Source of the DNA: Stutzerimonas kunmingensis
Lineage (GTDB): Bacteria; Pseudomonadota; Gammaproteobacteria; Pseudomonadales; Pseudomonadaceae
Direction: 5' to 3'
DNA: 64,000 nucleotides
Assembly: GCF_002929225.1 (NCBI RefSeq)
Contig: NZ_PISM01000014.1
Coordinates: 372,001-436,000 of the forward strand
The position numbers and the translations under genes are program-made. Positions 48,286-60,948 of this stretch are shown in pieces (the first letter of the stretch is position 1; every line of letters begins with the position of its first letter). The notes below the pieces were generated by a model that worked only from the letters and a program-made list of their open reading frames with translations, searched no databases and was not told where the DNA came from.

Positions 48286-48978
48286 TCAGACTTCGGTGAT
48301 CGCGCTGACGCTGGTGATGCCAGCGTTCCAGATCATCTCGTAGTGTGCGGTCTGAACGATGGACAGTACGCGCCGCGGCGTCATGAGTGCCCAGCAGTGC
48401 CGGCCTGGGCTACGTACCGAGTGATACCGCAACCCGGGGAATCCCTCTTGCCTGGCGAGGCGACCGAACTGGCGGGACTGGAAGTAATCATCCGCGTCGT
48501 AGATCGGATCCGACATCGACACGCTCGTGGCATCCAGCAGCCCGGCCTCGTTGAATTGACATGACAACCCGCGGAAAACGAACCGCTCGAAGTTCAAGCC
48601 TACGACATTCGACCAGTAGTGCTCTTGGTGATACCGCACCTCGGCCAGTGCCGTTTCCATGCTGTCGGCCAGATACAACACGCCGTAGCTGCCATCGCTG
48701 AAACGAGAGCCGGCTGGATTCACGTGGGTGAACGGCGCCGTAGCGTAGGAGCAGCCCGGAATGCCGAATGGTATTTCTGACCGAGGAATCAGCTCGAGGC
48801 GGCCAGTCTCGTTGTGCAATCTCGGGTTTGTCAGCGCCTGCAACTGATAGAGGATTTCAAATTCCTCCGCGTCGGCTACGTCATCGAACAGATCGATGGG
48901 GGGATACTTGGAGTTCACCAGCCGGTACGACTGGCACCGGGCATCTGCCCGTATCGGCAGTCGCTGCGGCACTACCAC
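48286..48978 (-). CDS. RES-domain toxin (NAD+ phosphorylase family)
   Basis: A 230-residue RES-domain protein: YRLVNSKYPP at the start, RFSDGSYGVLYLADSMETALAEVRYH in the core (the R and E-x-R residues bind NAD+), and a C-terminal strand-rich part. RES toxins degrade NAD+ and stop growth. It overlaps its upstream partner by seven bases, the usual antitoxin-toxin coupling. Confidence 0.9.
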   Translation of the reverse strand: MVVPQRLPIRADARCQSYRLVNSKYPPIDLFDDVADAEEFEILYQLQALTNPRLHNETGRLELIPRSEIPFGIPGCSYATAPFTHVNPAGSRFSDGSYGVLYLADSMETALAEVRYHQEHYWSNVVGLNFERFVFRGLSCQFNEAGLLDATSVSMSDPIYDADDYFQSRQFGRLARQEGFPGLRYHSVRSPGRHCWALMTPRRVLSIVQTAHYEMIWNAGITSVSAITEV

Positions 48979-49376
48979 TGCGCGCCTCGCAGGCTGTCGA
49001 TACGGCGGAACGACTCGTACAGGGAAATCATGTCCCCCTGAGCCATTACCTCCAGCGGCGATCGCCCGTTGAAGAATTCGTTGTGATTGGGCATTGCCGC
49101 AAAGCCGTAAGTGTTTTCCGGGTTATCGAAGATCAGCCGCAGTGCTGCGTGGATGTTGAGAATGAAACTGACGCGCTGCATCTGGTCGGGGTCCAGGCTG
49201 ACCGACCAATCTGCATTGCGGAGCTTGGCCCGTGCGTGAGTACTGCGGGAGATACGCAATATCCGACAGGCCTGTTCGGTAGACGCCTGCCATTTTTCGA
49301 GAATGTTCACCGCAGTACGAAGGCCGGCGGCGCACTGGTCTTTGGTAAACGCGGGTGCCTGAAGAGTCGCAGTCAT
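48972..49376 (-). CDS. Xre/MbcA/ParS-type antitoxin
   Basis: The 134-residue protein has an N-terminal helix-turn-helix region ([20 protein letters not shown]) and a C-terminal toxin-binding domain with HEFFNGRSPLEVMAQGDM, the usual pattern of RES-associated antitoxins. It should neutralise the RES toxin and repress the operon through the palindrome at 49420. Confidence 0.9.
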   Translation of the reverse strand: MTATLQAPAFTKDQCAAGLRTAVNILEKWQASTEQACRILRISRSTHARAKLRNADWSVSLDPDQMQRVSFILNIHAALRLIFDNPENTYGFAAMPNHNEFFNGRSPLEVMAQGDMISLYESFRRIDSLRGAQW

Positions 49377-49461: not shown

Positions 49462-49483
49462 ACTCAGTTTGAGGAAACTGAGT
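49462..49483. repeat. Perfect nine-base inverted repeat
   Basis: ACTCAGTTT-GAGG-AAACTGAGT lies between the antitoxin promoter and the nuclease gene. It has no T-tract; it could be a regulator site or structured leader. Confidence 0.5.
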
Positions 49484-49653
49484 CTCCAAGTCACTTTTAC
49501 TTGTGAGCGGCCGTCACCTGTACCGGCCCAGCCCGCTTGGCGTTTGCCCAGCAAAGCGACCGATTACCGCGACTTCTTGCCTATCGCAACTGCTCACCAC
49601 TGATGGCAGAATCGAATCAAAGGATTGCCAACAGCGGTATCAAGGAGGGGGTT

Positions 49654-50748
49654 ATGGAGTTTCAAGAGAAACTGGCCAGTCTGGCTGCGAAGATCCGTCA
49701 GCAAAAGTCGGTCATTCAGACCGAAGAAGCTACCAAGAACGCCTTTGTCATGCCCTTCATACAGAGCGTGCTCGGCTACGACGTCTTCGACCCTACAGAA
49801 GTGGTTCCCGAGTTCGTTTGTGACGTCGGAACCAAGAAAGGCGAGAAGATCGACTATGCCATCCTCAAGGATGGGCAGATCCAGATACTGATCGAAAGCA
49901 AGAAGATCGGCGAGCCACTGAATATCAACCACGCCAGCCAGCTCTTCCGCTACTTCCACGTTACGACAGCCAGAATCTCGATCCTCACCAATGGCCAGGT
50001 CTACCGCTTCTTCACTGACCTGGACGCCCCAAACAAGATGGACGAAAAGCCGTTCCTAGAATTCGACCTTCTCGACATCGATGACCACGTCGTGCCGGAG
50101 CTGCAGAAGCTGACCAAGAGCGCATTCGATGTCGACTCGATCATCAGCGCCGCGGGCGAGCTGAAGTATGTAGGGCAGATTAAGCGTGTCCTCGCCGCCC
50201 AGTTCAGCGAACCCGACGATGACTTTGTCCGGCTCGTAGCTTCCCGCGTGTATGACGGTGTCATCACTCAGAAGGTGCGCGAGCAGTTCGCCCAGCTCAC
50301 TCGAAAGGCTACGGCGCAGTTTCTGGGGGATCAGATAAATGAGCGCCTGAAGTCAGCGATGACCGGTGCCGTAAGACCTGTGATCCCTGCCCAAGTATCA
50401 CCTGAGACACAAGAGCCGGCCGAAAACTCTCCCGATAGCGATGCTGAGAAGACCAAGATCGAAACCACGGTTGAAGAAATCGAGGGTTTCAACATCATCA
50501 AGGCGATCGTACGGTCGGAAGTCGACGTGAAGCGCATAGCCGCCCGCGACACGCAAAGCTATTTCGGCGTACTGCTCGATGACAACAATCGTAAGCCGCT
50601 GGCCCGCCTGCACTTCAACCGTCAGCAAAAGTACCTCGGTACCTTCGACGCGGACAAGAACGAGACCCGCCATCCGATCGACGCGCTCGACGACATTTTC
50701 GAGTTCGCAGACATTTTGAAAGACACAGCCAAAAGCTACGCCTGCTGA
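49654..50748 (+). CDS. Stand-alone HsdR-N (type I restriction R-subunit N-terminal) nuclease-like protein
   Basis: A 364-residue protein whose first 170 residues form an HSDR_N-type PD-(D/E)xK nuclease: KIDYAILKDGQIQILIESKK gives Asp67, Glu81, Lys83. The rest is a helical region, an acidic linker and a small beta domain (AARDTQSYFGVLLDDNNRKP). It lacks the motor domains of HsdR, and no HsdM or HsdS is nearby. The ATG at 49654 follows AAGGAGGGG. A defence role is possible given the neighbours, but such single proteins are widespread and uncharacterised. Confidence 0.75.
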   Translation: MEFQEKLASLAAKIRQQKSVIQTEEATKNAFVMPFIQSVLGYDVFDPTEVVPEFVCDVGTKKGEKIDYAILKDGQIQILIESKKIGEPLNINHASQLFRYFHVTTARISILTNGQVYRFFTDLDAPNKMDEKPFLEFDLLDIDDHVVPELQKLTKSAFDVDSIISAAGELKYVGQIKRVLAAQFSEPDDDFVRLVASRVYDGVITQKVREQFAQLTRKATAQFLGDQINERLKSAMTGAVRPVIPAQVSPETQEPAENSPDSDAEKTKIETTVEEIEGFNIIKAIVRSEVDVKRIAARDTQSYFGVLLDDNNRKPLARLHFNRQQKYLGTFDADKNETRHPIDALDDIFEFADILKDTAKSYAC

Positions 50749-51337
50749 GCGCCCGCTAGGAGGCACGCACCCGGCCTAGTGCAATTCAGGCTGGGTGCAT
50801 TGGCACCCCCAATATCAACACATCCGCAAGGAAGCCTTGGTCTGTCCCGGGCTGAGTGGACACTGACTTAAGGTGGATAATGTCCGCCGCAAGGAGTGTT
50901 CATGACCCAGACCACTTGGCCAGCGAATAATTTCCAACGTCGAGGCCGCCTCGAACGAAAGCGGCGAGGGCGCCAAAATAGTGCGGGGCACCCTCGGAGT
51001 GAGCGTTCGAGATATTGAGCGTTACGGAATACTCGGAGGGCCGATTCCTACTTAAGGCAGATAATGCCTAACTGGGACAACGGAGAGCGATTCTTAGGTG
51101 GGGAAAACAGCTTTTTCAGAAAGAACCTAGGCTTGCCTTGGTAAAAGCAGATTGTGGAGCCGGACCGATGGCCTTCTCGCTTCAGATGATTCACGGCGGC
51201 GGGAGGTCGCGATCCGGGTCGCGTAGTTGCACAAGCCCAGAGCTCAAACTGCAATCAGGTGATTGACTGGTGATTGACCGTACTCTGGCTTGCAGATGGA
51301 AAAATGCACTAGGTGACGCTTAAGCCCGCGTGGTGAC
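50749..51337. other. Gene-poor stretch with degenerate repeats left of the element
   Basis: No convincing gene. A 20-base motif occurs twice: ACTTAAGGTGGATAATGTCC at 50866-50885 and ACTTAAGGCAGATAATGCCT at 51050-51069 (16 of 20 identical). The first is followed by AAGGAG and a short frame (MTQTTWPANN...) that stops after about 38 codons, possibly the decayed start of an insertion sequence gene. Confidence 0.4.
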
Positions 51338-51359
51338 TGGTGCCGGAGCGGGGATCGAA
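51338..51359. other. Distal attachment site (imperfect copy of tRNA-Leu 3' end)
   Basis: TGGTGCCGGAGCGGGGATCG-AA matches the tRNA-Leu end at 60862-60884 with one missing C and one G-to-A change, in the same orientation. This is the expected left junction after integration. Confidence 0.65.
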
Positions 51360-51413
51360 TATAGCTCCTCCAGGCCACTGATTACGGCGTTTCGCTCCGG
51401 TTATAGATAGACC

Positions 51414-51436
51414 GTACCCCTAAGCGTACCCCTAAA
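51414..51436. repeat. Left copy of a 23-base direct repeat (arm-type integrase site candidate)
   Basis: Two tandem GTACCCCTAA units 13 bases apart. The same double motif occurs at 60729-60751 (21 of 23 bases identical, same orientation). Tandem short repeats inside both element ends are typical arm sites of tyrosine integrases. Confidence 0.65.
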
Positions 51437-51589
51437 AACAAAAGTACCCTGCCGAACAGAGGCTATGGCCTAACGGTGAGCATCCGACGTCGGTGCGGTG
51501 CTGGTCTACGCCTCGAATTCAGGTTTTCGGCGCTTAGCGATAAAACGGAGGGTTCCTAGCGGTCGTGCTGCTGTCGGTTGCTGGTGATC

Positions 51590-51787
51590 TTAGAGCTCCA
51601 TCTGCCGAACAATCTCAGCAGGGTCGGCGCCTCGCTGTAATGCGCGTCGGGCATCGCGGGTCATGGTGTCGATTGCTTCGCTCTCGAACCTCTCTGCCAT
51701 TCGGCAAGCCTTGCGGACGATCAGCACAGCCAGTTCGCGGGGAAACTCGGTTTTCTGCTGCTTCGGTCGGCCATAGCTAATCGACAT
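51590..51787 (-). CDS. Small element protein of unknown function
   Basis: A 65-residue helical, charged protein (MSISYGRPKQQKTEFP, then AVLIVRKACRMAERFE and a C-terminal DPAEIVRQMEL). GGAG lies eight bases before the ATG. It follows the small terminase and is the last gene of the element. No family recognised. Confidence 0.65.
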   Translation of the reverse strand: MSISYGRPKQQKTEFPRELAVLIVRKACRMAERFESEAIDTMTRDARRALQRGADPAEIVRQMEL

Positions 51788-51818
51788 GCGTTTACTCCAG
51801 GATGAAAGATTGTTTCGG

Positions 51819-52202
51819 CTAGAGATCGGCGAAGGGGTTCGCACTCGGCTTTGCACGGGTCGCAATACTGACCTTTGACCGGTCGGATGGCGTCATGCCG
51901 AACTTGCCCAGCAGCACCTCCAGTCGAACAAGGCGCATTGAAGTAAATTCCAGCGGATCAGCCCGGAATTGGGCGAGAAGATTTGCCGCTATCTCCAGCG
52001 CGATTCGGTCGGAGTCTGTCAGTACTCCAGGCGGCGCAGAGACGGCTATATCGTTCCAGCATTCAAGCGCCTGCTCAGTCAAATGATCCGGCGCGGCGGA
52101 TAGCGGGCCGGCGGTGTCTGGATCTACACGCTTGCGCTCGGGGTGCTTACGGAATGAACCGCGGGCGTCGAGTACGTTGGTTGGGGTTCTTGGCCTGGCC
52201 AT
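51819..52202 (-). CDS. Phage terminase small subunit (P27-like)
   Basis: The 127-residue protein starts MARPRTPTNVLDARGSF and ends with LLGKFGMTPSDRSKV, the pattern of P27-type small terminases. These bind packaging sites on phage DNA. Without a large terminase in the element, it may redirect a helper's packaging motor. The start at 52202 has GGAAG upstream. Confidence 0.82.
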   Translation of the reverse strand: MARPRTPTNVLDARGSFRKHPERKRVDPDTAGPLSAAPDHLTEQALECWNDIAVSAPPGVLTDSDRIALEIAANLLAQFRADPLEFTSMRLVRLEVLLGKFGMTPSDRSKVSIATRAKPSANPFADL

Positions 52203-52401
52203 ATTCAAAACTTCCATTACGGAGAGACAGGAAAATTACTGGATGGGCGGTGTCCGCTTTCGTCTTGCCTGAACAATGAGTCCACCCCCCCGGCAGGTGC
52301 TTCCAGAGAGGTTCGCTTTTCGCAAAAATTGTGGCGGTTTATGGTTGCCGAGTTTTGGGACCGGTTACCGCAACGAAGGCCTTGAGCTCTCACATGGCCC
52401 C

Positions 52402-52602
52402 CTATGCCTGCTCGATGACTCCGCTTCCGTCAGGCAGCAGTACGTCAGCCAATCGCTGTGCTCGGTCGTCCGCCTCTTGCTGCGAGTCGCCTTGCAGGAT
52501 GGCAAGTGTTCTGCCGCCTTGTTTCAGTCGGGTGTGATACTTCGGCGGAAGGCCAAGCATTGCTCTGTGCAATACCTGGCCGTGTTCAATGGGTCTAAGC
52601 AT
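52402..52602 (-). CDS. Small element protein of unknown function
   Basis: A 66-residue protein starting MLRPIEHGQVLHRAML with a helical DSQQEADDRAQRLADVLLP. Its ATG overlaps the stop of the frame before it by eight bases. No family recognised; the stretch 52218-52401 after it holds no gene I can support. Confidence 0.5.
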   Translation of the reverse strand: MLRPIEHGQVLHRAMLGLPPKYHTRLKQGGRTLAILQGDSQQEADDRAQRLADVLLPDGSGVIEQA

Positions 52603-52885
52603 GGTCGTTGCGTTCTGAGATCGTGGTTAACGTCGAGTTAACAGCTTTCGTTAACCCAGAAATAATCCGCAGATGCGGGAGGTGGCGGTTTCCGCTTGAG
52701 TGGGGCTTCGAGCTTTCGATCCGCCCCCCCCCCCTTGGAATTGGTGCCTGCCACCAGCGCCGTTCGCATTCGGCTCGGAATTGCTGCGCAGGCTGTCGAG
52801 GTTCTTTAATGTCTGGTGACTCACGACTGTACCCAGTCCGGCCGTTCCCTTGCGGGCCGCGCCGGCTACGGAACCAACCCGTCAA
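52595..52885 (-). CDS. Short frame containing an 11-G tract, possibly frameshifted
   Basis: A 96-codon frame begins two bases after the capsid stop. It runs through eleven consecutive G's (C's at 52724-52734 on the plus strand). One G more or less would give different tails (for example ending ADYFWVNESC or SRICGLFLG). Such a tract can be phase-variable, programmed for slippage, or a sequencing error. No domain recognised in any version. Confidence 0.35.
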   Translation of the reverse strand: MTGWFRSRRGPQGNGRTGYSRESPDIKEPRQPAQQFRAECERRWWQAPIPRGGGRIESSKPHSSGNRHLPHLRIISGLTKAVNSTLTTISERNDHA

Positions 52886-52886
52886 C

Positions 52887-54002
52887 TCACGGGGTAGGGT
52901 TCAGCTCCACGCGCAGCACAGCGCCCGGGGCGAATACAGCCAGGCCGAAACGTCCTTCAGCCAAGATCGTGGTTTGGTTGGTGACGAAGTTGTCCCGGTC
53001 TTCACGGCTCGCCATCACGGTGACCTGCTCGCGATCCAGCAGCGCAACCTGTGAGGTATCCATGACCAGTGCGGCGCCAGCAGTGATGCCCGGAGAGGTC
53101 ACGACAGGCAGGCCCCAAAGGTTCTGGCCGGACGGGTCTCGAGGTGAGCCCAGCACATACTGGCCATTGCCTGTCTCGGCACGCTCTGAGGCGATGGAGA
53201 ACCAGTCGCTTGGGTGCATGACGATAACGGACGGGCTCCACCCGGCAGACTGAAGCGCGGTCATTGCCTGGCCTACCCGGTCGGATGCGTGCGTTGCGGT
53301 CGGGGTGTGCTCGGTAGCCTGAAGCTCAAGTCCGAGAATGTGGCCGGTGGTGCCGTCACCCTTCATCAGCTCCGCTTCCAGCTTGGCCTGCACACCGTAG
53401 CGCAGCAGGTTGTCCAGCTGGTTCTGAAGCGCGGGCGCATCGGACAGGATCTGGTTTGACGCTCGTACCCAGTGCGCGATGGTGATGATGTTGGAGGTCT
53501 TCACCTCGAACGCCGGGGCGGACTCAGCTTTCAAGTCGCCCTCTGCAACCTGGACTGCGGCACCGTTGGCAGCGGTGGTCAGGCTCATGAACTCGAACGA
53601 GGAGCTGTTTACCGGCACAACCGGCAGCAGATCCAGCAGCGAGAGTCGCACCTGGGGATTGTTGAACAGTCCTTGAGCCCGCTGGGGTTGCACATCCACG
53701 TCAGCGCCGGTCAATGACTTGCGCAGCGTGGGCAGATCGCCGTTCTTCAGCACTACGCGGCCGGTGCTGTTAGCGCCGCCGATCAGGCTTTCAAGCTGTG
53801 CCGATTCGATGAACGAGGCGACCGGGCTGGACTTGCGGCCGAAGTAGCCTGGCTCCTCAGCGCCACCCCGGCGCGCCATCTTTTGTTCAAGGTCTTCGAT
53901 GCGTGCCGTGACGCCTTTAACTTCCTTGGTTAGATCGCTTTTCATGGATTGGACGGCGGCACCGTGTTCTTCCAGGGACTTGGCTACGATTTCAAAACTC
54001 AT
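52887..54002 (-). CDS. HK97-fold major capsid protein
   Basis: The 371-residue protein has an N-terminal coiled scaffold (KSLEEHGAAVQSMKSDL, ARIEDLEQKMARR), expected to be cut by the protease. The HK97 capsid fold follows: LLPVVPVNSSSFEFMS, WVRASNQILSDAPALQ, VIVMHPSDWFSI and LRVELNPTP at the end. It follows the prohead protease gene by six bases. A satellite with its own capsid can build particles of its own size. Confidence 0.93.
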   Translation of the reverse strand: MSFEIVAKSLEEHGAAVQSMKSDLTKEVKGVTARIEDLEQKMARRGGAEEPGYFGRKSSPVASFIESAQLESLIGGANSTGRVVLKNGDLPTLRKSLTGADVDVQPQRAQGLFNNPQVRLSLLDLLPVVPVNSSSFEFMSLTTAANGAAVQVAEGDLKAESAPAFEVKTSNIITIAHWVRASNQILSDAPALQNQLDNLLRYGVQAKLEAELMKGDGTTGHILGLELQATEHTPTATHASDRVGQAMTALQSAGWSPSVIVMHPSDWFSIASERAETGNGQYVLGSPRDPSGQNLWGLPVVTSPGITAGAALVMDTSQVALLDREQVTVMASREDRDNFVTNQTTILAEGRFGLAVFAPGAVLRVELNPTP

Positions 54003-54008
54003 AATGAA

Positions 54009-54683
54009 TTACCTCTGCCCTTGAAGGGCTTGTGTGATGCTTTGGAGTTTTGCCGCGATTGCGGCTAGTTCTGCGCTGTCGTCGGGCTGCTCGTCTCGAA
54101 CAAGTCCGTTCCAGCCACCCGCCATAAGCCGTTTAGCTTCGCGGGCGCTTAATCCCAATGCATCACGCACTGAGCGTTCAAAGTCGCGGGGGTTGGGGTT
54201 TACCGGGTCGAAGCTCTTCACGCTGGTGATGCGTGCGCTGGTGTTCGCCGGCAGTGCCACTAGGGAAACTTCGACCAGATCGATCTGCTTCAGCAGTCGG
54301 GCGCCGTTCTTAATCTCAGCGCCTCCGGCCGGGATCATGTAGCCGATCGACAGGGCCAGAGCGCCGTCACGCATCAGGGCATGGGCGGCTTTGGCTTGGG
54401 GTACGTCGGTGGTCAGTTTGCCGTGAGCCAGCAAACCTTCCGGGGTGTCCTCGAACTTGAGCCAGACGCCGACCGGATTTGATTGGTCGTGCTGCCAGAG
54501 CAAGGCCGGGCGGGTCTTGTTGGCTTCGTGCTGGGCAAGGGTCTTGGTGTACGCACCAGGTGCGATCAGGTCGCCGTGGGCATCAGGTTCGCCGCCGTAT
54601 GGGCTGGCAATACCGGAGAAGGTGCCGGCTTCATCGCCAGCAGAAAACTTGAATTGGATCGGGGCGGCTTGGAATGCGCGCAT
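54009..54683 (-). CDS. HK97-family prohead protease
   Basis: About 224 residues with the U35 protease pattern: SGIASPYGGEPDAHGDLIAPGAY, ALLWQHDQSNPVG with the catalytic histidine, LSIGYMI with the serine, and LVEVSLVALPAN. It matures the capsid by removing the scaffold. The start MRAFQAAP at 54683 is family-like; an ATG 33 bases upstream is possible. Confidence 0.92.
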   Translation of the reverse strand: MRAFQAAPIQFKFSAGDEAGTFSGIASPYGGEPDAHGDLIAPGAYTKTLAQHEANKTRPALLWQHDQSNPVGVWLKFEDTPEGLLAHGKLTTDVPQAKAAHALMRDGALALSIGYMIPAGGAEIKNGARLLKQIDLVEVSLVALPANTSARITSVKSFDPVNPNPRDFERSVRDALGLSAREAKRLMAGGWNGLVRDEQPDDSAELAAIAAKLQSITQALQGQR

Positions 54684-54816
54684 AAGTACGTTCTCACTTG
54701 AGCAAATAGGGATCATTTGCCGCTCAGGGAACGCATCACGCGCAACTGGGACGGGGCGCAGCGCATCACGCGCTGACCTGTCCAGTTTAATGACATGTCA
54801 CCAGAGCGGCAAGTGG

Positions 54817-55110
54817 CTAACTGATATTGGCGTCCGGCCAAATACGGTGTGCGTTCGCCAGCGCCTCGGCATGAGTTGTCGGTTCGCCGGTCATCCTGAA
54901 TGGCTGATATCCCGGCGCCGTGACATCCCAATATCGGCGGCGCTCGGCTCCGTCATTCGCTGCCAGCTCGGCCAGCAATTCCAGGCGGTGTGATCGAACG
55001 TACCGGCGCACGTCTTCGGTGATGCCCGACTTCGGCGTGACGAAAACCCGGTTGCCTCGTCGCTTCGCGGTCAGGCCATGACGGTGTAGAAAATCAATTG
55101 CGGCAGCCAT
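54817..55110 (-). CDS. Small element protein of unknown function
   Basis: A 97-residue protein: MAAAIDFLHRHGLTAKRRG, then VRRYVRSHRLELLAELAANDG, and a C-terminal part ending HRIWPDANIS. It overlaps the DUF3631 gene by one base. The N-terminal half looks like a small winged or swapped helix pair often found at the end of phage replication proteins (TubC-N-like), but I do not assign it. Confidence 0.6.
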   Translation of the reverse strand: MAAAIDFLHRHGLTAKRRGNRVFVTPKSGITEDVRRYVRSHRLELLAELAANDGAERRRYWDVTAPGYQPFRMTGEPTTHAEALANAHRIWPDANIS

Positions 55111-56627
55111 CAGATTTCCTCCCCGTCTTCGTCTTCCGACTGTAGGGGTGAAAAATCCTCTACACTTCTACAAGCCCCGCCAGTCGTGGGTTTCAGGCCG
55201 TTTTCTTTCTCTACACCGACATTGCTTGTAGAGGTTTGAAAATCGCTGTAACCCGCGCCAGCCGTGGGCTGTAGAGGTGTAGAGGTTTTCAGGGGGGTGT
55301 CAGCCGAAAGGTAACGATCCCAAGCCTCTACAAAGTCGCTCCGGTCATATCCCATCTTCCCGGTTTCGGTACCAATACGGACTTGGTGCGACTTTATGCC
55401 GAACTCCTCGATCTTCGTTTTCAGCTGGCGGGGAGTGATTGGCTTGCCGCGATTCCACGTTGCCCAGGGGGCTTCGTCGTTCGCGTTGAGTGCGTCAAGC
55501 AGATGCGAGCTGAACATCTTGCTGGCGCGTTTTTCGTCGAATACCGCCTTGATATCCGCCAGCAGCTCGGCACCGATGCTTGGCGTTTCCTCTTCGATAC
55601 CGTGCAAGGCGATGGCGGACTGCCTGGCGATGCGCGGCCAATCCCCGCCAGCAACATCAGCGATTGCCAATAGCGGCTCCCAGCAGTCGTTGGCGCGGTC
55701 GTTCAATCCCTCGATGATCGCTGGCCGTGCTGCTCCAATAGTGATGGCGTTGTCATCAGCGAAACGGGCGACTCGGCTGCGCAAGCGATCCCACATTGCC
55801 GGATCGGAATGGCGCAGACGTTCTACGCTCTCGCCTGGCTTCTTCCGGCGCAGTCGCAGCGGAATGCTGCGGTCTGCCAGGGTGTCAGCGATCTTGCCGA
55901 TACCGCAGAGCGCCTTCGCCCCCCATACGTTAAATTTGGTCGGCATGTGGTCATCACCAACACAGCGAACAACGAATGCGCTGTCGCGAGTAAACCCGGC
56001 ATTTAGAATGCCGCGTGCCTCCTCGTTATCACGCATGAAGGCATCTGCTTCATCGATATGCAAAGTCGGTGACCATAGTTCGATTGAGCGAAACAGCGCG
56101 GCGTTAGCGATGCCCGAAACCTGCATTGGCCGATAGGTCAGCTTGCTCAATACCGAAAGCATGATGGTCTTACCGCAGCGTTTTTCCGGTGCCGTGATGT
56201 TGGCGATTGGCGCGACTTGTACCGCGTCGATTAACCAGGTGAACGTCGCCCATAGCGCGGCGGCGCGGATCGTCTCCCGGTCTGCGATGACGTGGCGTCC
56301 GATGGCCTCCACCAGCTCGTCGAGTAGGTCAGCCCCGTTTACCTTTTCCGGCCACGGCTCCACCTCGTCGAAGATCCCGTCATTGGCCGATGCCTTGCCT
56401 TCAACCGCTGGCGCGGTGATCCGGTCGAAGTCGGCCATGCTCAGCACGTTGGCTTTTTTGACTTGGTGACGGAGCCGCGCCCATGCGGCCGGGTCGGTGT
56501 CGCGGGTACGCTTCAGTTCGTCGAGGATCGCCGGCACATACAGCGCACCAGGATCGACGGACAGCTGGTCGATGGCCTCTTGGAGCGGGCTTTTAGGCTC
56601 CAGGACGAAAACCTTTTCAGATCCCAT
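55110..56627 (-). CDS. DUF3631-domain replication ATPase
   Basis: The 505-residue protein has a nucleotide-binding region with APEKRCGKT as a variant Walker A, LHIDEAD as Walker B and the arginine-rich ADRSIPLRLRRKK. The middle and C-terminal part are the DUF3631 domain. Such proteins accompany Toprim primases in phages and satellites and probably act as the replicative helicase. It overlaps the primase by 11 bases. The acidic C-terminal tail contains short Thr/Ser-Pro repeats. Confidence 0.85.
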   Translation of the reverse strand: MGSEKVFVLEPKSPLQEAIDQLSVDPGALYVPAILDELKRTRDTDPAAWARLRHQVKKANVLSMADFDRITAPAVEGKASANDGIFDEVEPWPEKVNGADLLDELVEAIGRHVIADRETIRAAALWATFTWLIDAVQVAPIANITAPEKRCGKTIMLSVLSKLTYRPMQVSGIANAALFRSIELWSPTLHIDEADAFMRDNEEARGILNAGFTRDSAFVVRCVGDDHMPTKFNVWGAKALCGIGKIADTLADRSIPLRLRRKKPGESVERLRHSDPAMWDRLRSRVARFADDNAITIGAARPAIIEGLNDRANDCWEPLLAIADVAGGDWPRIARQSAIALHGIEEETPSIGAELLADIKAVFDEKRASKMFSSHLLDALNANDEAPWATWNRGKPITPRQLKTKIEEFGIKSHQVRIGTETGKMGYDRSDFVEAWDRYLSADTPLKTSTPLQPTAGAGYSDFQTSTSNVGVEKENGLKPTTGGACRSVEDFSPLQSEDEDGEEI

Positions 56628-57543
56628 GCGAAGCCCTCCAGCACAGCAAGTCGTTGAAGTCGCTTAGCTCCAGCGGGGCGTCGGTCGGCCATACAGGGAA
56701 AGCCACCTCCGCACCGATGGCGAGCGCGGCGGCTGTCGCTGCGGTGCGCCCCGGATTGCCCGCGGTCATGCGGTCGTCGTCGCCGGCGATGATGATCTGC
56801 TGCGAATCGCCGTACTTGGCGCGCAGGGCTTGCGCCACTGGCTTGAGGTTGCCCGCATTCATGGCGCAGGCCACGGCGGCGCCGGTTTCAGCGTGGATCG
56901 TTGCGCCCGTTGCCCAGCCTTCGACGATGTACAGCGGCTGGCCAGAGTCGATGCAACCCAGCGCGGCATAGGCACCACGAACTTGACCACCAAACAGGAA
57001 ACGCTTCGCTCCGTCCGACTCAATGCGCTGAATATTCACCAGACGGCTATCAGCGAACAACGGCACCAATAGCACGTCGCCAGACTGGCGCAGGCTGTGC
57101 GGCTTGGCTCGCTTTCGTATCAGATATGGGTGATCGGCGTCGGCACGGCTTGCTTCGCGCCAAAGGCGAGCGGCACGTTCAGCAGCGCTCTGCTGGCGTT
57201 GCTGCTGCTCTGATTCGCGCTGCTCTCTCGCCTTCTCGATGCGCTGTGCGATCAACTGCGCTTCCATCGGGTCGGCCGGCTTGCGGCTGCTCCAGGTTTG
57301 CGAGCCGTTAGCCTTCCAACTGCCGAACGCACCAGATGCGATGCCGTCCAGATACAAGACGTACCATCCGTTTTGCGAACCTGGCTTGTCCTCCGGTACG
57401 CGGAAACGATGGATTGCGCCGTCTGGCACAGGGAGCCAATCCAATTGCCCGAATGTGGTCTGTAGCGCGTCACGGAAGGCCAGTTCAGCTTTTTCAGGCA
57501 AGCCGATCCCGTTCAGCGCATGGGCGCCGTTTTGAATAGTCAT
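56617..57543 (-). CDS. Toprim-domain primase of the element
   Basis: A 308-residue protein with an N-terminal helical region rich in Gln/Glu (EKAREQRESEQQQRQQ) and a C-terminal Toprim domain: IVEGWATGATIHAETG (the conserved glutamate) and IIIAGDDDRMTAGN (the Asp-x-Asp). It should make primers for satellite replication. The first ~70 residues resemble the DUF7146/PriCT-like fold of plasmid primases. Confidence 0.88.
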   Translation of the reverse strand: MTIQNGAHALNGIGLPEKAELAFRDALQTTFGQLDWLPVPDGAIHRFRVPEDKPGSQNGWYVLYLDGIASGAFGSWKANGSQTWSSRKPADPMEAQLIAQRIEKAREQRESEQQQRQQSAAERAARLWREASRADADHPYLIRKRAKPHSLRQSGDVLLVPLFADSRLVNIQRIESDGAKRFLFGGQVRGAYAALGCIDSGQPLYIVEGWATGATIHAETGAAVACAMNAGNLKPVAQALRAKYGDSQQIIIAGDDDRMTAGNPGRTAATAAALAIGAEVAFPVWPTDAPLELSDFNDLLCWRASHGI

Positions 57544-57546
57544 GGT

Positions 57547-57864
57547 TTAGCCCTCTGCGGTCGGGTTCGGTGCGGTGGCCTTGCGGCGCTCCAGCTCGTA
57601 CTCGGCGCCGTTCGCAACGTCCACGAGCCTGCCGGATAGCGTGCCCAGCGAGTTGATAAGCCAGCCGATATTGCGGGCGGCGTCGTTGGATAGCTCGCCA
57701 GCGTCGGCAGTGTTCGCCAGTAGCTCGCCAATGGCGGAAATGCCGTGGGCCACCGTCAGCGCCTCGCATTCAGCGGTGCGCTCGATGGCGTCCAGATCAT
57801 CAGTGGACAGACGGCCCATGCGCAAAGGATCGGGTAGCAGGTGACTCCAGCAGACGGAGCTCAT
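57547..57864 (-). CDS. Small element protein of unknown function
   Basis: A 105-residue helical protein (MSSVCWSHLLPDPLRM, ERTAECEALTVAHGIS, NIGWLINSLGTLSGRL). It overlaps the gene before it by four bases and ends three bases before the primase. The pattern is like small phage proteins of the DUF3077/DUF-type that precede primases; no function assigned. Confidence 0.6.
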   Translation of the reverse strand: MSSVCWSHLLPDPLRMGRLSTDDLDAIERTAECEALTVAHGISAIGELLANTADAGELSNDAARNIGWLINSLGTLSGRLVDVANGAEYELERRKATAPNPTAEG

Positions 57865-58028
57865 TGGGCACCCCCTGCAACTTCCAGAGCGCGGGCACGT
57901 GTCATCGCTTCGTTGTAGCGGCGCAGGCGAACGGATAGGGACGAATCAGCGCGCAGAGCGGCGAAGGCGCGGGCCTTCCACGCGGCGGCGTGGGATTTGG
58001 ACGGATTGAGGGTAAGGGTGGTGCGCAT
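57861..58028 (-). CDS. Short basic element protein
   Basis: A 55-residue, Ala/Arg-rich protein (MRTTLTLNPSKSHAAAWKAR, RRYNEAMTRARALEV). AAGGAG stands about nine bases before the ATG, and the stop overlaps the next gene by four bases. Function unknown. Confidence 0.65.
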   Translation of the reverse strand: MRTTLTLNPSKSHAAAWKARAFAALRADSSLSVRLRRYNEAMTRARALEVAGGAQ

Positions 58029-58297
58029 GGGTGTAGCTCCTTTTGCTGAGGAACTACCGGCATCACTTGGCGATGATGGGCGGTAGCACTGTACGGGCCG
58101 CCAAGATCGGGGCAAAAGGAACCCGATAGGGCCGAAACCCTCCCGCACAGCGCCACCATAAAACGCAGGCGAAAAAAAACTCCGCGCTGGTAGGTGGGAG
58201 CTTGTGCTCCTTTTGCTCTCCGGGCTTGGCGTCCCGGTCGCTGAATTTGCAGCGACGGGCAAACGATACATGCGGACGCATACGGGGGCAAGCGTAA
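58029..58297 (-). other. Leader region of the element's replication operon
   Basis: This 269-base gap holds no gene. On the minus strand it has a stem-loop at 58054-58086 (CTACCG ... CGGTAG outside, CATCA ... TGATG inside) just before the ribosome site of the 55-codon gene. Further upstream are a small GGAGC/GCTCC hairpin and an eight-T run at 58171-58178 (A's on plus). The AGCAAAAGGAGC string occurs twice. It may be a regulatory leader with transcription termination, as in P4-type satellites. Confidence 0.4.
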
Positions 58298-58582
58298 TCA
58301 TTGCAGACCCTCCGGCGCGGCATGAATCGGAAGACGTGAAGCATCAATCGCAGTGATTAACGTGGCGCGGCTCAGTCCTTTGGCTTGCAGGACCGTCGAT
58401 AAGCTCAAAAACGAAGACAGCGCCACTACTTCGCTCGGCGTGCCGCTGGCGCGGGCATAGCCGACGATCAGCGGGAGAAGCTGTTCGAGGATAAACTGCT
58501 CATGATCTTCGACGTGGTGCTGGCTATAATCGGCTGGCATGTTTTGCAGGCCGCTATCCTTCGCCGGGGCGGCCTTTTTCAT
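58298..58582 (-). CDS. Small element protein of unknown function
   Basis: A 94-residue protein starting MKKAAPAKDSGLQNMPADYS, with a helical, hydrophobic middle (FILEQLLPLIVGYARASG). It overlaps the AlpA-like gene by four bases. No family recognised. Confidence 0.6.
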   Translation of the reverse strand: MKKAAPAKDSGLQNMPADYSQHHVEDHEQFILEQLLPLIVGYARASGTPSEVVALSSFLSLSTVLQAKGLSRATLITAIDASRLPIHAAPEGLQ

Positions 58583-58800
58583 GCTGCGTCCCTCGATTCG
58601 ATCTTGGCCCGGAGCCAATTCTCAACCTCAGCGACCACATAGAATGCGGCAGCCTGGCGGGAGTCGCCATCTTTGATCGGCTTAGGAAAAGTCGGATCTT
58701 TCTTGCTGAGCTTGTCCAGCCCGGAGCGGGACAGGTCGAGCCAGATGCAGAGCGCGGGCTTACGAATCAGGGCTTTGCTTGGAGCGGCAAGTGGGTGCAT
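58579..58800 (-). CDS. AlpA-like small DNA-binding regulator / excisionase
   Basis: A 73-residue winged-helix-like protein with the AlpA pattern LDLSRSGLDKLSKKDPTFPKPI and a C-terminal VVAEVENWLRAKIESR. AlpA-type regulators control integrase and satellite gene expression and may act as excisionases. Confidence 0.78.
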   Translation of the reverse strand: MHPLAAPSKALIRKPALCIWLDLSRSGLDKLSKKDPTFPKPIKDGDSRQAAAFYVVAEVENWLRAKIESRDAA

Positions 58801-58881
58801 TTGAACGCCTCCGTATGGGTACGGAAGCTAAGTTATGCGGGAAGACCTTAGGCTAAAATACCGCGTGCTAGCACAGGCCAA

Positions 58882-59394
58882 TCACTGCTTTATATGGTCA
58901 GCCAGCCACCGGCGGATTGTTCTTTCGGTATATGGAACCACTCGCTGAATCTCTCTCGCGGCTTCCGATACGTTTCCTTTGAACTTGTCTCGATGCAGTG
59001 TGAAATAGTCGATAGCCTGGTCCTTCGCCGATCGGTTTTCTTGGTGTATGCGATCCGACCCGGCGGCACGTCGCATGTATTCCGCTTGCTTATGCTGCAA
59101 ACCGAACCATGTAGCGATCAGCTTGTTAGTGTTTTCACAAAGCACACCGAGCCTAAATCCAGCTGTCATCGCAGCTTCCGCGTCGGAGCCTTCGATAAGC
59201 CACAAACATTCTCGCGCCTGGCTAGCTACGGCATGTGCGATGCCGTGAATATTGGCTGGTAGATTGTCCTCCGAGTTGTACGGGCGGTTTGCCAGCTCTT
59301 CCGCTTGAGCGAGTACCGCTTCTAGTCCCTTTCTGCCTTCCAGCATCTCGAAGTAGAAGGTCTTGAGCGTGATGCTGTTCCTTCCAGCCGTCAT
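58882..59394 (-). CDS. Element protein of unknown function with C-terminal helix-turn-helix
   Basis: A 170-residue protein directly after the integrase (four-base overlap). The N-terminal two thirds are helical. The last 45 residues (NVSEAAREIQRVVPYTERTIRRWLADHIK) look like a DNA-binding helix-turn-helix of phage regulators. Function unknown. Confidence 0.65.
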   Translation of the reverse strand: MTAGRNSITLKTFYFEMLEGRKGLEAVLAQAEELANRPYNSEDNLPANIHGIAHAVASQARECLWLIEGSDAEAAMTAGFRLGVLCENTNKLIATWFGLQHKQAEYMRRAAGSDRIHQENRSAKDQAIDYFTLHRDKFKGNVSEAAREIQRVVPYTERTIRRWLADHIKQ

Positions 59395-60701
59395 GCCCGC
59401 AGCTCCACCACGTTGCTGGCACTTTTGCCCCGATGCGCAAACTCGTATGGCGTGACGTGCCGTTGCCGGTTGGCGTCGAGGTAGTCAGCCCACCAGGTCA
59501 TCATCAGCCGGCGTTCTTCCAGGTGCTCGGCCTTGTGGATATAAGCAGCGCGGACTCCGTTGCGCTCTTGGTGGCTCATCTGCCGTTCAACCGCGTCGCG
59601 GCTCCACAAGCCCGATTCCACTAATGCAGAACACGCCATCGTGCGGAAACCGTGCCCGCAAACGTCCACCTTCGTGTCATAGCCCATACGGCGCAGCGAC
59701 TTGTTAACGGTGTTTTCTGAAAGCGGCTTCCAGTGGTGGTGGTCGCCAGCAAATACCAGATCGAAGCGGCCAGTAAGCGGCTTGATTGCGTCCAGGGTGG
59801 CCAGCGCCTGGCGACTCAGCGGGACCATGTGCGGCGTGCCCATCTTGGCGCCACGGTGCGAGTGCTTCACGCCTTCGATGGGCTTGCGCTCGCCTGGGAT
59901 GATCCACATGGATCGGCCGAAGTCGAACTCATCCCAGCGGGCAAATCGGAGTTCACTTGAGCGGATGAATACCAGCAGAGTGAGCTGGACGGCAAGACGG
60001 GTCAGAGGCCGGCCGGTGTCCGCCTCGATGCGCACCAGCAGCTCGGACAGCCGTTCGAGGGGTAATGCCGGCCTGTGCCTTGTCTTCGGCGTGGCGGTGC
60101 CTCCCAGCAGATCAAGCGCCGGGTTGTAGTCGATCATGTTGCGCTGGACGCCAGTTCGCATGATGCCCACCACACGTTGGCGCAACCGGCCGGCAAGATC
60201 CAGAGCGCCGCGCTTCTCCACCAGTTTCAGCGCAGCCAGCAGGTCGCTTGTTTTCAGGTCGGCAATAGGTCGGTGCCCCAGCAACGGAAATAGATCCGCT
60301 TCGGACTCATTCATCACTCGGGTAGCGTGACCCTTAGACCACTTGCCGGCCATGCTGGCGTGCCACTCTAGGGCGACAGCCTTGAAGGTATTGCAGGACG
60401 ACTGCGCCGCCTCGATGACTTTCCGGTGTTCGTGCTCGATGGGGTCTACGCCCTTCGCCAGCAGCTCCAGCGCCTCGGCTCGCTTACCCCTGGCTGCCTT
60501 CAACCCGGTCGCCGGATAGCCGCCGAAAGTTGCAAGCCCTTCCCTGCCATTGGGGCGCTTGAACTTGAACCGCCATACCTTGCTCCCGTTCGCCTTCACC
60601 AGCAGGAACAGACCGCTGCCGTCGAACAGCTTGTAGTCCTTGTCGCGGGGGCGTGCGGCATCGCACTTGGAGTCTGTGAGGGGCGTTACTGTGCGCGCCA
60701 T
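59391..60701 (-). CDS. int: P4-type tyrosine integrase
   Basis: The 436-residue recombinase has the N-terminal DUF4102 arm-binding domain (DYKLFDGSGLFLLVKANGSK), a core-binding domain, and the catalytic set. That set is Arg in FIRSSELRFARWDEF, His-x-x-Arg in GHGFRTMA, His in MSHQERN and Tyr in AAYIHKAEHLEERR. It sits next to tRNA-Leu, its likely target. Its start codon is followed upstream by an inverted copy of the TACCCCTA motif. Confidence 0.95.
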   Translation of the reverse strand: MARTVTPLTDSKCDAARPRDKDYKLFDGSGLFLLVKANGSKVWRFKFKRPNGREGLATFGGYPATGLKAARGKRAEALELLAKGVDPIEHEHRKVIEAAQSSCNTFKAVALEWHASMAGKWSKGHATRVMNESEADLFPLLGHRPIADLKTSDLLAALKLVEKRGALDLAGRLRQRVVGIMRTGVQRNMIDYNPALDLLGGTATPKTRHRPALPLERLSELLVRIEADTGRPLTRLAVQLTLLVFIRSSELRFARWDEFDFGRSMWIIPGERKPIEGVKHSHRGAKMGTPHMVPLSRQALATLDAIKPLTGRFDLVFAGDHHHWKPLSENTVNKSLRRMGYDTKVDVCGHGFRTMACSALVESGLWSRDAVERQMSHQERNGVRAAYIHKAEHLEERRLMMTWWADYLDANRQRHVTPYEFAHRGKSASNVVELRA

Positions 60702-60728
60702 AGGGGTACGCTCCTAAATCGAACCGGC

Positions 60729-60751
60729 ATACCCCTAAACGTACCCCTAAA
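60729..60751. repeat. Right copy of the 23-base direct repeat
   Basis: ATACCCCTAA-ACG-TACCCCTAAA, 21 of 23 bases identical to 51414-51436. It lies between the integrase start and tRNA-Leu. Candidate integrase arm site. Confidence 0.65.
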
Positions 60752-60791
60752 GAACGGGCATGTACAGACGCATGTGGATTCATACGGGCAC

Positions 60792-60818
60792 AAAAAAACC
60801 GGCTCAGGGGCCGGTTTT
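60792..60818 (-). terminator. Terminator downstream of tRNA-Leu
   Basis: AAAACCGGC and GCCGGTTTT pair around TCAGGG; on the minus strand the stem ends in seven T's. It stops tRNA-Leu transcripts from entering the element and can also act in the plus direction. Confidence 0.8.
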
Positions 60819-60861
60819 ACTGGGCTTCAGGTTCATATGGGAACATCTGAAATCATGTCCA

Positions 60862-60948
60862 TGGTGCCCGGAGCGGGGGTCGAACCCGCATACCCTTTCG
60901 GATGAGAGATTTTAAGTCTCTTGCGTATACCAATTTCGCCATCCGGGC
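60862..60948 (-). tRNA. tRNA-Leu (TAA)
   Basis: An 87-base class II tRNA with acceptor GCCCGGA / TCCGGGC, anticodon TAA in CAAGAGACTTAAAATCTC, a long variable arm and encoded CCA. Its 3' end is the element's attachment site and is left intact. Confidence 0.96.

Follow-up and report, generated by a model that had tools for sequence, protein, structure and literature searches.

How could a chromosomal island spread if it encodes a phage capsid protein, a prohead protease and a small terminase (TerS), but neither a portal nor a large terminase (TerL) gene is found beside its capsid gene? The question is raised by a locus of Stutzerimonas kunmingensis in a 64,000-nucleotide stretch of contig NZ_PISM01000014.1 (positions 372,001–436,000; assembly GCF_002929225.1), here called the window, whose own coordinates are used throughout. 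The island occupies positions 51340–60861 (approximately 9.52 kb) in a tRNA-Leu(UAA) gene. Sequence comparison makes it probable that the island is a satellite of the Gram-negative phage-inducible chromosomal island (PICI) kind, which would parasitize cos-type siphophages resembling HK97 and D3 and mount its own capsid on the portal, TerL and tail of the helper. An original prediction made from the window sequence had proposed a satellite that depends on a helper but encodes its own capsid and TerS; we favour this reading because of an empty integration site, a family of similarly organized islands, cos blocks shared with prophages, relatives embedded in terL and a separate capsid branch.

The island and its family

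The boundaries were fixed by an empty-site comparison covering 21 loci, the window's own included. In locus L275, from the same species, the left flank matches the window with 98.8% identity over 1,523 bp and runs directly into an intact tRNA gene, which places the ends of the island at about 51340 and 60861, close to the predicted limits of 51338 and 60884. The tRNA-Leu(UAA) gene used as the integration site lies at 60862–60948 on the minus strand, with attR at its 3′ end. The opposite boundary, attL (51340–51361), repeats the tRNA-Leu 3′ end imperfectly and is likewise fixed by the L275 empty site; its sequence alone gives a weak signal (best ungapped match 17 bp, E = 0.01). The integrase is 93% identical to that of L079, which adjoins the same tRNA gene.

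Most of the predicted gene set was recovered, with integrase, primase, DUF3631 protein, protease, capsid and TerS identified by profile; the AlpA-like regulator was recovered weakly. A complete virion gene set was not found in the element by Pfam, PHROG and profile searches, which included no dedicated search for lysis genes. Taken together, the comparisons describe a real and apparently intact satellite with a capsid on its own branch.

Relatives were collected through the capsid. Matches at E 1e-20, a loose cut that also drew in ordinary phage capsids, occurred in 21 of 194 related genomes. A scan of GTDB genomes gave 38 capsid loci, and the best 80 of 421 IMG/VR matches comprised 13 at 41–89% capsid identity, with the rest at 34–37%. 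The GTDB loci, minus one capsid fragment, were kept regardless of content, and the IMG/VR loci were split at the identity gap. With L086 (a fragment) and L094 and L103 (copies) dropped, 50 loci were examined, including the window and a second island of the window genome. The hosts are mostly Pseudomonas, Stutzerimonas and their kin. Islands of the same plan adjoin genes for tRNA-Leu, Arg, Val, Phe, Met, Gly, Ser and Thr, and others adjoin none; convincing end repeats (at least 14 bp) delimit islands of approximately 8.7–13.9 kb, and several of the 29 loci tested are without repeats. Among the entries listed by literature searches of open-licence papers, none described this capsid-bearing family; PMC4936722 deals with its capsid-less kin.

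Loci were considered judgeable where the capsid open reading frame (ORF) had at least 4 kb of upstream sequence. No portal or TerL gene was found within 5 kb of the capsid gene on the same strand in any of the 47 judgeable loci, compared with 55 of the 56 judgeable among 67 control loci from IMG/VR (34–37% identity), which bears out the predicted absence of both genes beside the capsid. The profiles were built from prophages found in this analysis, so that distant types could escape them; Pfam agrees for 11 genomes. Portal or TerL matches lie on another contig or at least about 90 kb from the capsid in 11 capsid-bearing genomes, and a Phage_portal match is present somewhere in 16 of the 35 genomes or records with these loci.

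Two relatives stand in a helper late gene, unlike the window element in its tRNA gene. In Pseudomonas capeferrum WCS358 (L078) and IMG/VR 2919155634 (L100) the satellite splits terL after the first ~90 codons, at codons for KKNS / KKN[SG]KST, which we take to be the Walker-A motif of TerL. The P. capeferrum satellite shows a 15-bp identity at its two ends; no end repeat longer than 10 bp was found in L100. A portal gene and terL lie approximately 7 kb downstream of the capsid gene in both, as part of the surrounding prophage, which is HK97-type and apparently complete and encodes a portal, a capsid separate from that of the satellite and a ~1,100-aa tape measure. These prophages are likely to be the helpers of the embedded satellites.

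The second island of the window genome (L028; G000:C13:179501-199500) lies beside tRNA-Arg(CCG) and has a protease–capsid pair, with a capsid approximately 50% identical. In several Pseudomonas satellites, a second integrase-like protein is encoded shortly before the capsid gene, at the position of the protease in others; examples are L070 (8351–9646) and, similarly, L078 and L100.

Capsid lineage and candidate packaging signals

The major capsid protein (371 aa; 52887–54002, minus strand) is of the HK97 type (Pfam Phage_capsid, 2e-41). Its AlphaFold model is of moderate confidence (predicted local distance difference test score, pLDDT, of 70), and the best PDB match is HK97 Head II (E 1e-26). 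The adjoining gene (54009–54716, minus strand) encodes an S78 prohead protease (Pfam Peptidase_S78, 6e-21; TIGR01543, 5e-24). Positions corresponding to HK97 K169, N356 and E363, the cross-link set of that phage, are retained in 23 of 23 satellite capsids, in an alignment hand-picked from the loci.

In a maximum-likelihood tree, one branch with 100/100 support parts 35 satellite capsids from 26 phage capsids, satellite and phage labels resting on whether a portal or TerL gene is nearby. The satellite capsids are therefore likely to have a single origin, in a tree whose root is not known and in which the program warned of long branches meeting at the satellite/phage join. Left out before the trees were built were L078, L103, L100, L094, L086, L092, L120, L138 and L185, together with near-copies by identity; also absent are the prophage capsids of G028, G020 and G146, all three missed by the capsid profile, and those of G196, G206, G221 and G203. 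A quick capsid tree agreed with the maximum-likelihood tree except for L122, a mislabelled phage. This HK97-like IMG/VR contig, which has no portal or TerL gene detected within 4 kb upstream, possibly through deletion or misassembly, was rejected as a satellite on account of a capsid 100% identical to that of a phage, and was excluded from the maximum-likelihood tree. A search of 50,697 phage records gave a top capsid identity of 37% among the best 20 of 963 matches, and no close capsid relative in a complete prophage appeared among the matches listed from these records, GTDB and IMG/VR (best 80 of 421).

Identities differ between neighbouring genes. L185, which is part of a 9,254-bp IMG/VR contig, shares with the window an identical TerS, a 99% identical protease and a capsid of 67% identity, and L041 and L056 share an 89% identical capsid and a protease of only ~45%. 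From this mismatch, it seems that the capsid gene has been exchanged between satellites. Membership in IMG/VR proved unusable as evidence of packaging, L041 extending into host genes.

TerS (132 aa; 51819–52217, minus strand) is of the P27 type (PHROG 83, 3e-17); searches of the window protein against Pfam and NCBIfam gave matches under the cut-off, and identity to the 79 listed loci other than L185 is 54–66%. A cos-like core, CGGACACCGC, lies at 52247–52256 (minus strand, 52256–52247), beginning 39 bp before the TerS start codon, with a G-run upstream at 52285–52291. It is the only exact copy on both strands of the window. Of the 80 loci with TerS relatives, 57 entered the motif comparison; the pattern CGGACACCG[CT] precedes terS in 36 of them, usually by 39 bp, and 54 have one of four variants of the motif. 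The linear D3 record ends with AGGACACCGCGCCCCCA and begins with GGTCTTTTTCC, which places the cut, and the window site resembles the D3 type, as at the D3 genome end. Sixteen IMG/VR contigs, selected for this property, start 21–61 bp before the terS match. The 10-base core by itself is not specific, with three copies in L066 and scattered ones in L056, L057, L059, L076 and L078, so that the candidate cos assignment rests on position and on the single copy in the window. The site was recognized only after the TerS relatives had been collected, and the two cos types detected earlier among relatives were not found in the window element.

Those other types link satellites to phages. Both composites of satellite and prophage (P. 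capeferrum and IMG/VR 2919155634) carry a block of 37–39 bp twice, once ahead of terS in the prophage and again downstream of the capsid gene in the satellite. The second cos type, CCGAACGACGGGGGGAGCC, is common to the satellites L028 (which lies in the window genome), L041, L058, L059, L062 and L064 and to the phages L183 and L123. Blocks were sought in 23 satellites by comparison with 19 prophage regions that contain a portal gene, using the 2.3 kb before terL or, in one region, the 4.5 kb before the portal gene. In 14 satellites, a block of 20–80 bp no more than 1.3 kb after the capsid gene matches sequence ahead of terL in HK97-type prophages. In three others the match lies before the capsid gene, in a region meant as a control, and is read as a cos site elsewhere in the satellite, which leaves the reverse strand (0 of 23) as the sole control. 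Seventeen satellites had been chosen for a portal-bearing prophage in the same genome or record; the remaining six (L070, L073, L101, L104, L059 and L062) were included since a match had already been seen, and several of the 17 (for example L058, L064, L071, L074, L077, L078, L080 and L100) had also shown a match earlier. Satellite and own-genome prophage share a block in 9 of the 17 pairs (24–80 bp; in the best case 44 of 44 bases), each with a match 490–890 bp ahead of the end of the compared sequence, which is where terS starts.

Tail genes accompany the capsid in some relatives. Among 46 loci with at least 2.5 kb downstream, 12 encode a tape-measure protein (TMP), 15 a lambda-I-type tail assembly protein (TAPI) and none both, with PHROG support of 6e-156 for TMP and 2e-69 for TAPI; TerS is present in three of the 46, including the window element, which has neither tail gene. 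TAPI (21 ORFs) and tape measures are the commonest families among 150 of the 156 ORFs that lie downstream in 45 loci, and no portal or TerL family was seen among the 25 listed of 98 families. For TAPI, the helper part of neither composite (P. capeferrum, IMG/VR 2919155634) gave a match, and the one copy detected in each belongs to the satellite. Cargo downstream of the capsid gene includes matches to ThsA, AriA, GajA, PtuA and candidate PDC systems, one member each, in a scan by defence family that does not show which locus carries each match.

Proposed assembly on a helper and its alternatives

Starting from what can be read in the DNA, namely an island with an empty site, its gene set, a cos-like site at the phage position, a capsid that has a separate branch, purifying selection and the cross-link positions, and the embedding of two relatives in likely helpers, the following course seems probable. 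Helper infection or prophage induction would switch the satellite on; the integrase would excise a circle from tRNA-Leu, and the primase and DUF3631 protein would replicate it to concatemers. The satellite capsid protein and protease would build a prohead on the helper portal. TerS would bind its own D3-type cos and recruit helper TerL to cut and pack satellite DNA, with terS first and the protease–capsid pair last in the packed molecule, and helper connectors and tail would complete a chimeric particle. Induction, use of the helper portal and TerL, the composition of the shell and transfer are the steps that we infer. A fuller version would make this a third kind of satellite head. It holds that a satellite-only lineage of cross-linking HK97 capsids forms a whole shell on the portal of helpers with distantly related capsids, that a satellite TerS or cos acts with helper TerL, that some members swap one tail protein, and that the capsid gene moves like a cassette between satellites. 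This version is offered tentatively, as a possibility that we would not quite call probable.

Several observations weigh against this satellite reading. Satellite capsids are 24–39% identical to the prophage capsids compared, so that their fit to helper portals is unproven. An S78 protease gene stands just upstream of the capsid gene in 17 of the 50 loci, a few of which are cut short; many satellites would therefore need the protease of the helper. No shared block was found in 6 of the 23 satellites, nor in 8 of the 17 same-genome pairs. The window genome gave no match to the HK97-type TerL family, the only TerL family searched there, and its one portal match is weak (2e-15) and lies in a region with a P2-like ORF order. 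The AlpA-like regulator (58579–58800, minus strand) is a weak assignment to which a Pfam search of the window protein gave no match; in relatives the AlpA profile is above the cut-off in L098, L064 and L062, reaches 17.4 bits against a cut-off of 21 in L079, and finds nothing in L057. Finally, the ratio of non-synonymous to synonymous substitution rates (dN/dS) of the window capsid gene, 0.06 against L041 and L056 (dS ~1.1), is higher, at 0.21–0.29, against L185, L057 and L060 (dS 1.3–1.5); no value could be computed against L079, and dS approaches saturation in each of the other five pairs.

The composition of the shell is where a different explanation comes closest. The satellite capsid could be a redirector of size or shape that co-assembles with the helper capsid, as does Ccm, the HK97-fold capsid homologue of the cos-type PICI SaPIbov5, which forms the pentamers of mixed shells in place of those of phi12 (PMC8569155). 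Most of the 50 loci being without an S78 protease gene beside the capsid gene would fit such a role, and retained cross-link positions would suit mixed shells too. Co-assembly seems unlikely to us all the same, because satellite and helper capsids of the same genome are only 25–33% identical (11 comparisons, 10 satellites) and, by eye, no closer than unmatched pairs.

Assembly of a satellite shell on the helper portal is also preferred to the idea that capsid and TerS mainly poison helper assembly and are not required for satellite spread. The single tail genes of relatives, TMP or TAPI, could poison tails likewise, but a decoy need not retain the cross-link positions throughout or a terS gene with cos at phage spacing, and deletion of the capsid gene of EcCICFT073 left interference in place (PMC6092414); we regard this idea as quite improbable. 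Far less credible still is a decayed prophage that has lost its portal, TerL and tail. Phage head genes without the remainder, and one small ORF with a frameshifted look, are what decay might leave; against it stand similarly organized loci next to various tRNA genes, the empty site, the separate capsid branch and the purifying selection. The condition named in the prediction as refuting, relatives that form part of a complete prophage, came out against simple decay: the two relatives inside prophages proved to be satellites that interrupt terL, and the prophage around them retains head genes of its own, capsid included.

Remaining genes and relation to known satellites

The listed genes of the island all lie on the minus strand, with the integrase at one end, followed by a replication zone and a late zone. 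The tyrosine integrase (436 aa; 59391–60701; Phage_integrase 7e-15, arm domain 3e-22) is followed by orf170 (58882–59394), known from the ORF list and without assigned function, then by the AlpA-like gene and by orf106 (58298–58618), also without assigned function and with relatives in family loci. Next come orf146 (57861–58301), orf105 (57547–57864), which belongs to a phage family without assigned function (PHROG 9173, 3e-7), a TOPRIM primase (308 aa; 56617–57543; Pfam Toprim_3 1e-12, PHROG 2249 2e-62) and the DUF3631 protein (505 aa; 55110–56627; Pfam 9e-55), a putative helicase. A family gene without assigned function, orf97 (54817–55110; profile matches in 25 loci), precedes the protease gene. 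The small ORF after the capsid gene (52595–52885) contains an 11-base C run (52724–52734) and, by eye, looks frameshifted against the 80-aa ORF that relatives keep; the run may mark a frameshift or a sequencing slip. Beyond terS lies orf91 (51590–51865), without assigned function. Repeats near the two ends (51415–51436 and 60730–60751, 95% identical) may be integrase arm sites.

Adjoining the island, a 1.9-kb stretch (49463–51337) with an ORF resembling the HsdR N terminus is mostly present at the L275 empty site, and approximately 190 bp stand instead at the tRNA gene in L270–L273 and others; the stretch may represent an earlier insertion at this tRNA gene. Farther out (48286–49376), a RES-domain protein and an Xre-like/MbcA-type protein are likely to form a toxin–antitoxin pair.

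The nearest known satellites have different shares of these features. Capsid-forming PICIs (cfPICIs) encode portal and TerL and borrow tails only; membership of the window element in this group was rejected, as portal and TerL were not found near its capsid gene. Satellite capsids form their own clades within the phage capsid tree in cfPICIs too (PMC11389934), some of which carry putative tape-measure genes (PMC12987554). SaPIbov5 is Gram-positive, uses Ccm for pentamers only and has no identified protease (PMC8569155).

The capsid-less relative phiAH14b, from Pseudomonas sp. ANT_H14 (KU708005), was sequenced from purified particles attributed to a helper and was inferred to be packaged by a headful mechanism, probably as trimers, in heads of helper size (PMC4936722). 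Its integrase, primase and homologues of orf146 and orf91 are 40%, 61%, 49% and 58% (the last over 55 aa) identical to those of the window element, and its TAPI is up to 76% identical to that of relatives. This common backbone, in an element known to be packaged, speaks for the satellite reading. Unlike the window element it has no annotated capsid gene, and the annotated head genes of its helper are not in HK97 order. PICIs embedded in their helpers are known from lambda-type phages, with terminase genes among the sites (PMC10111431), which the two relatives in terL recall and the window element, in its tRNA gene, does not. PICI-like elements (PLEs) use their own TMP for chimeric tails and the ICP1 capsid protein for their virions (PMC12987554); some relatives of the window element, by contrast, pair a TMP or TAPI gene with a capsid gene of their own, and the window element itself has no such tail gene. 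The TMP-or-TAPI pattern ties the family to these newly reported chimeric tails.

The Gram-negative PICIs come closest, sharing with the window element an integrase, a primase, late genes, a chromosomal site of their own and, as read from the sequence, packaging by cos or TerS (PMC6092414, PMC10111431); to their AlpA-type regulator the window element has a weak candidate counterpart. By its sequence, the element has their gene layout, its own primase or replication gene, its own TerS with a D3-type cos-like site, and an incomplete virion set. It was predicted to be more reduced than known capsid-bearing satellites; that view is not supported, since capsid genes occur in 21 of the 29 Gram-negative PICIs used as reference (PMC10111431). 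Capsid-bearing PICIs are thus already known, and the new element of the present family is that it is Pseudomonas-centred, with an HK97-type capsid lineage on a branch of its own and, in the window, a weak AlpA. If the satellite reading is true, it extends capsid-bearing PICIs to this family and opens the question of how a satellite capsid assembles on the portal of a phage whose capsid is ~30% identical; the shared cos blocks and the insertion in terL point by sequence to candidate helpers.

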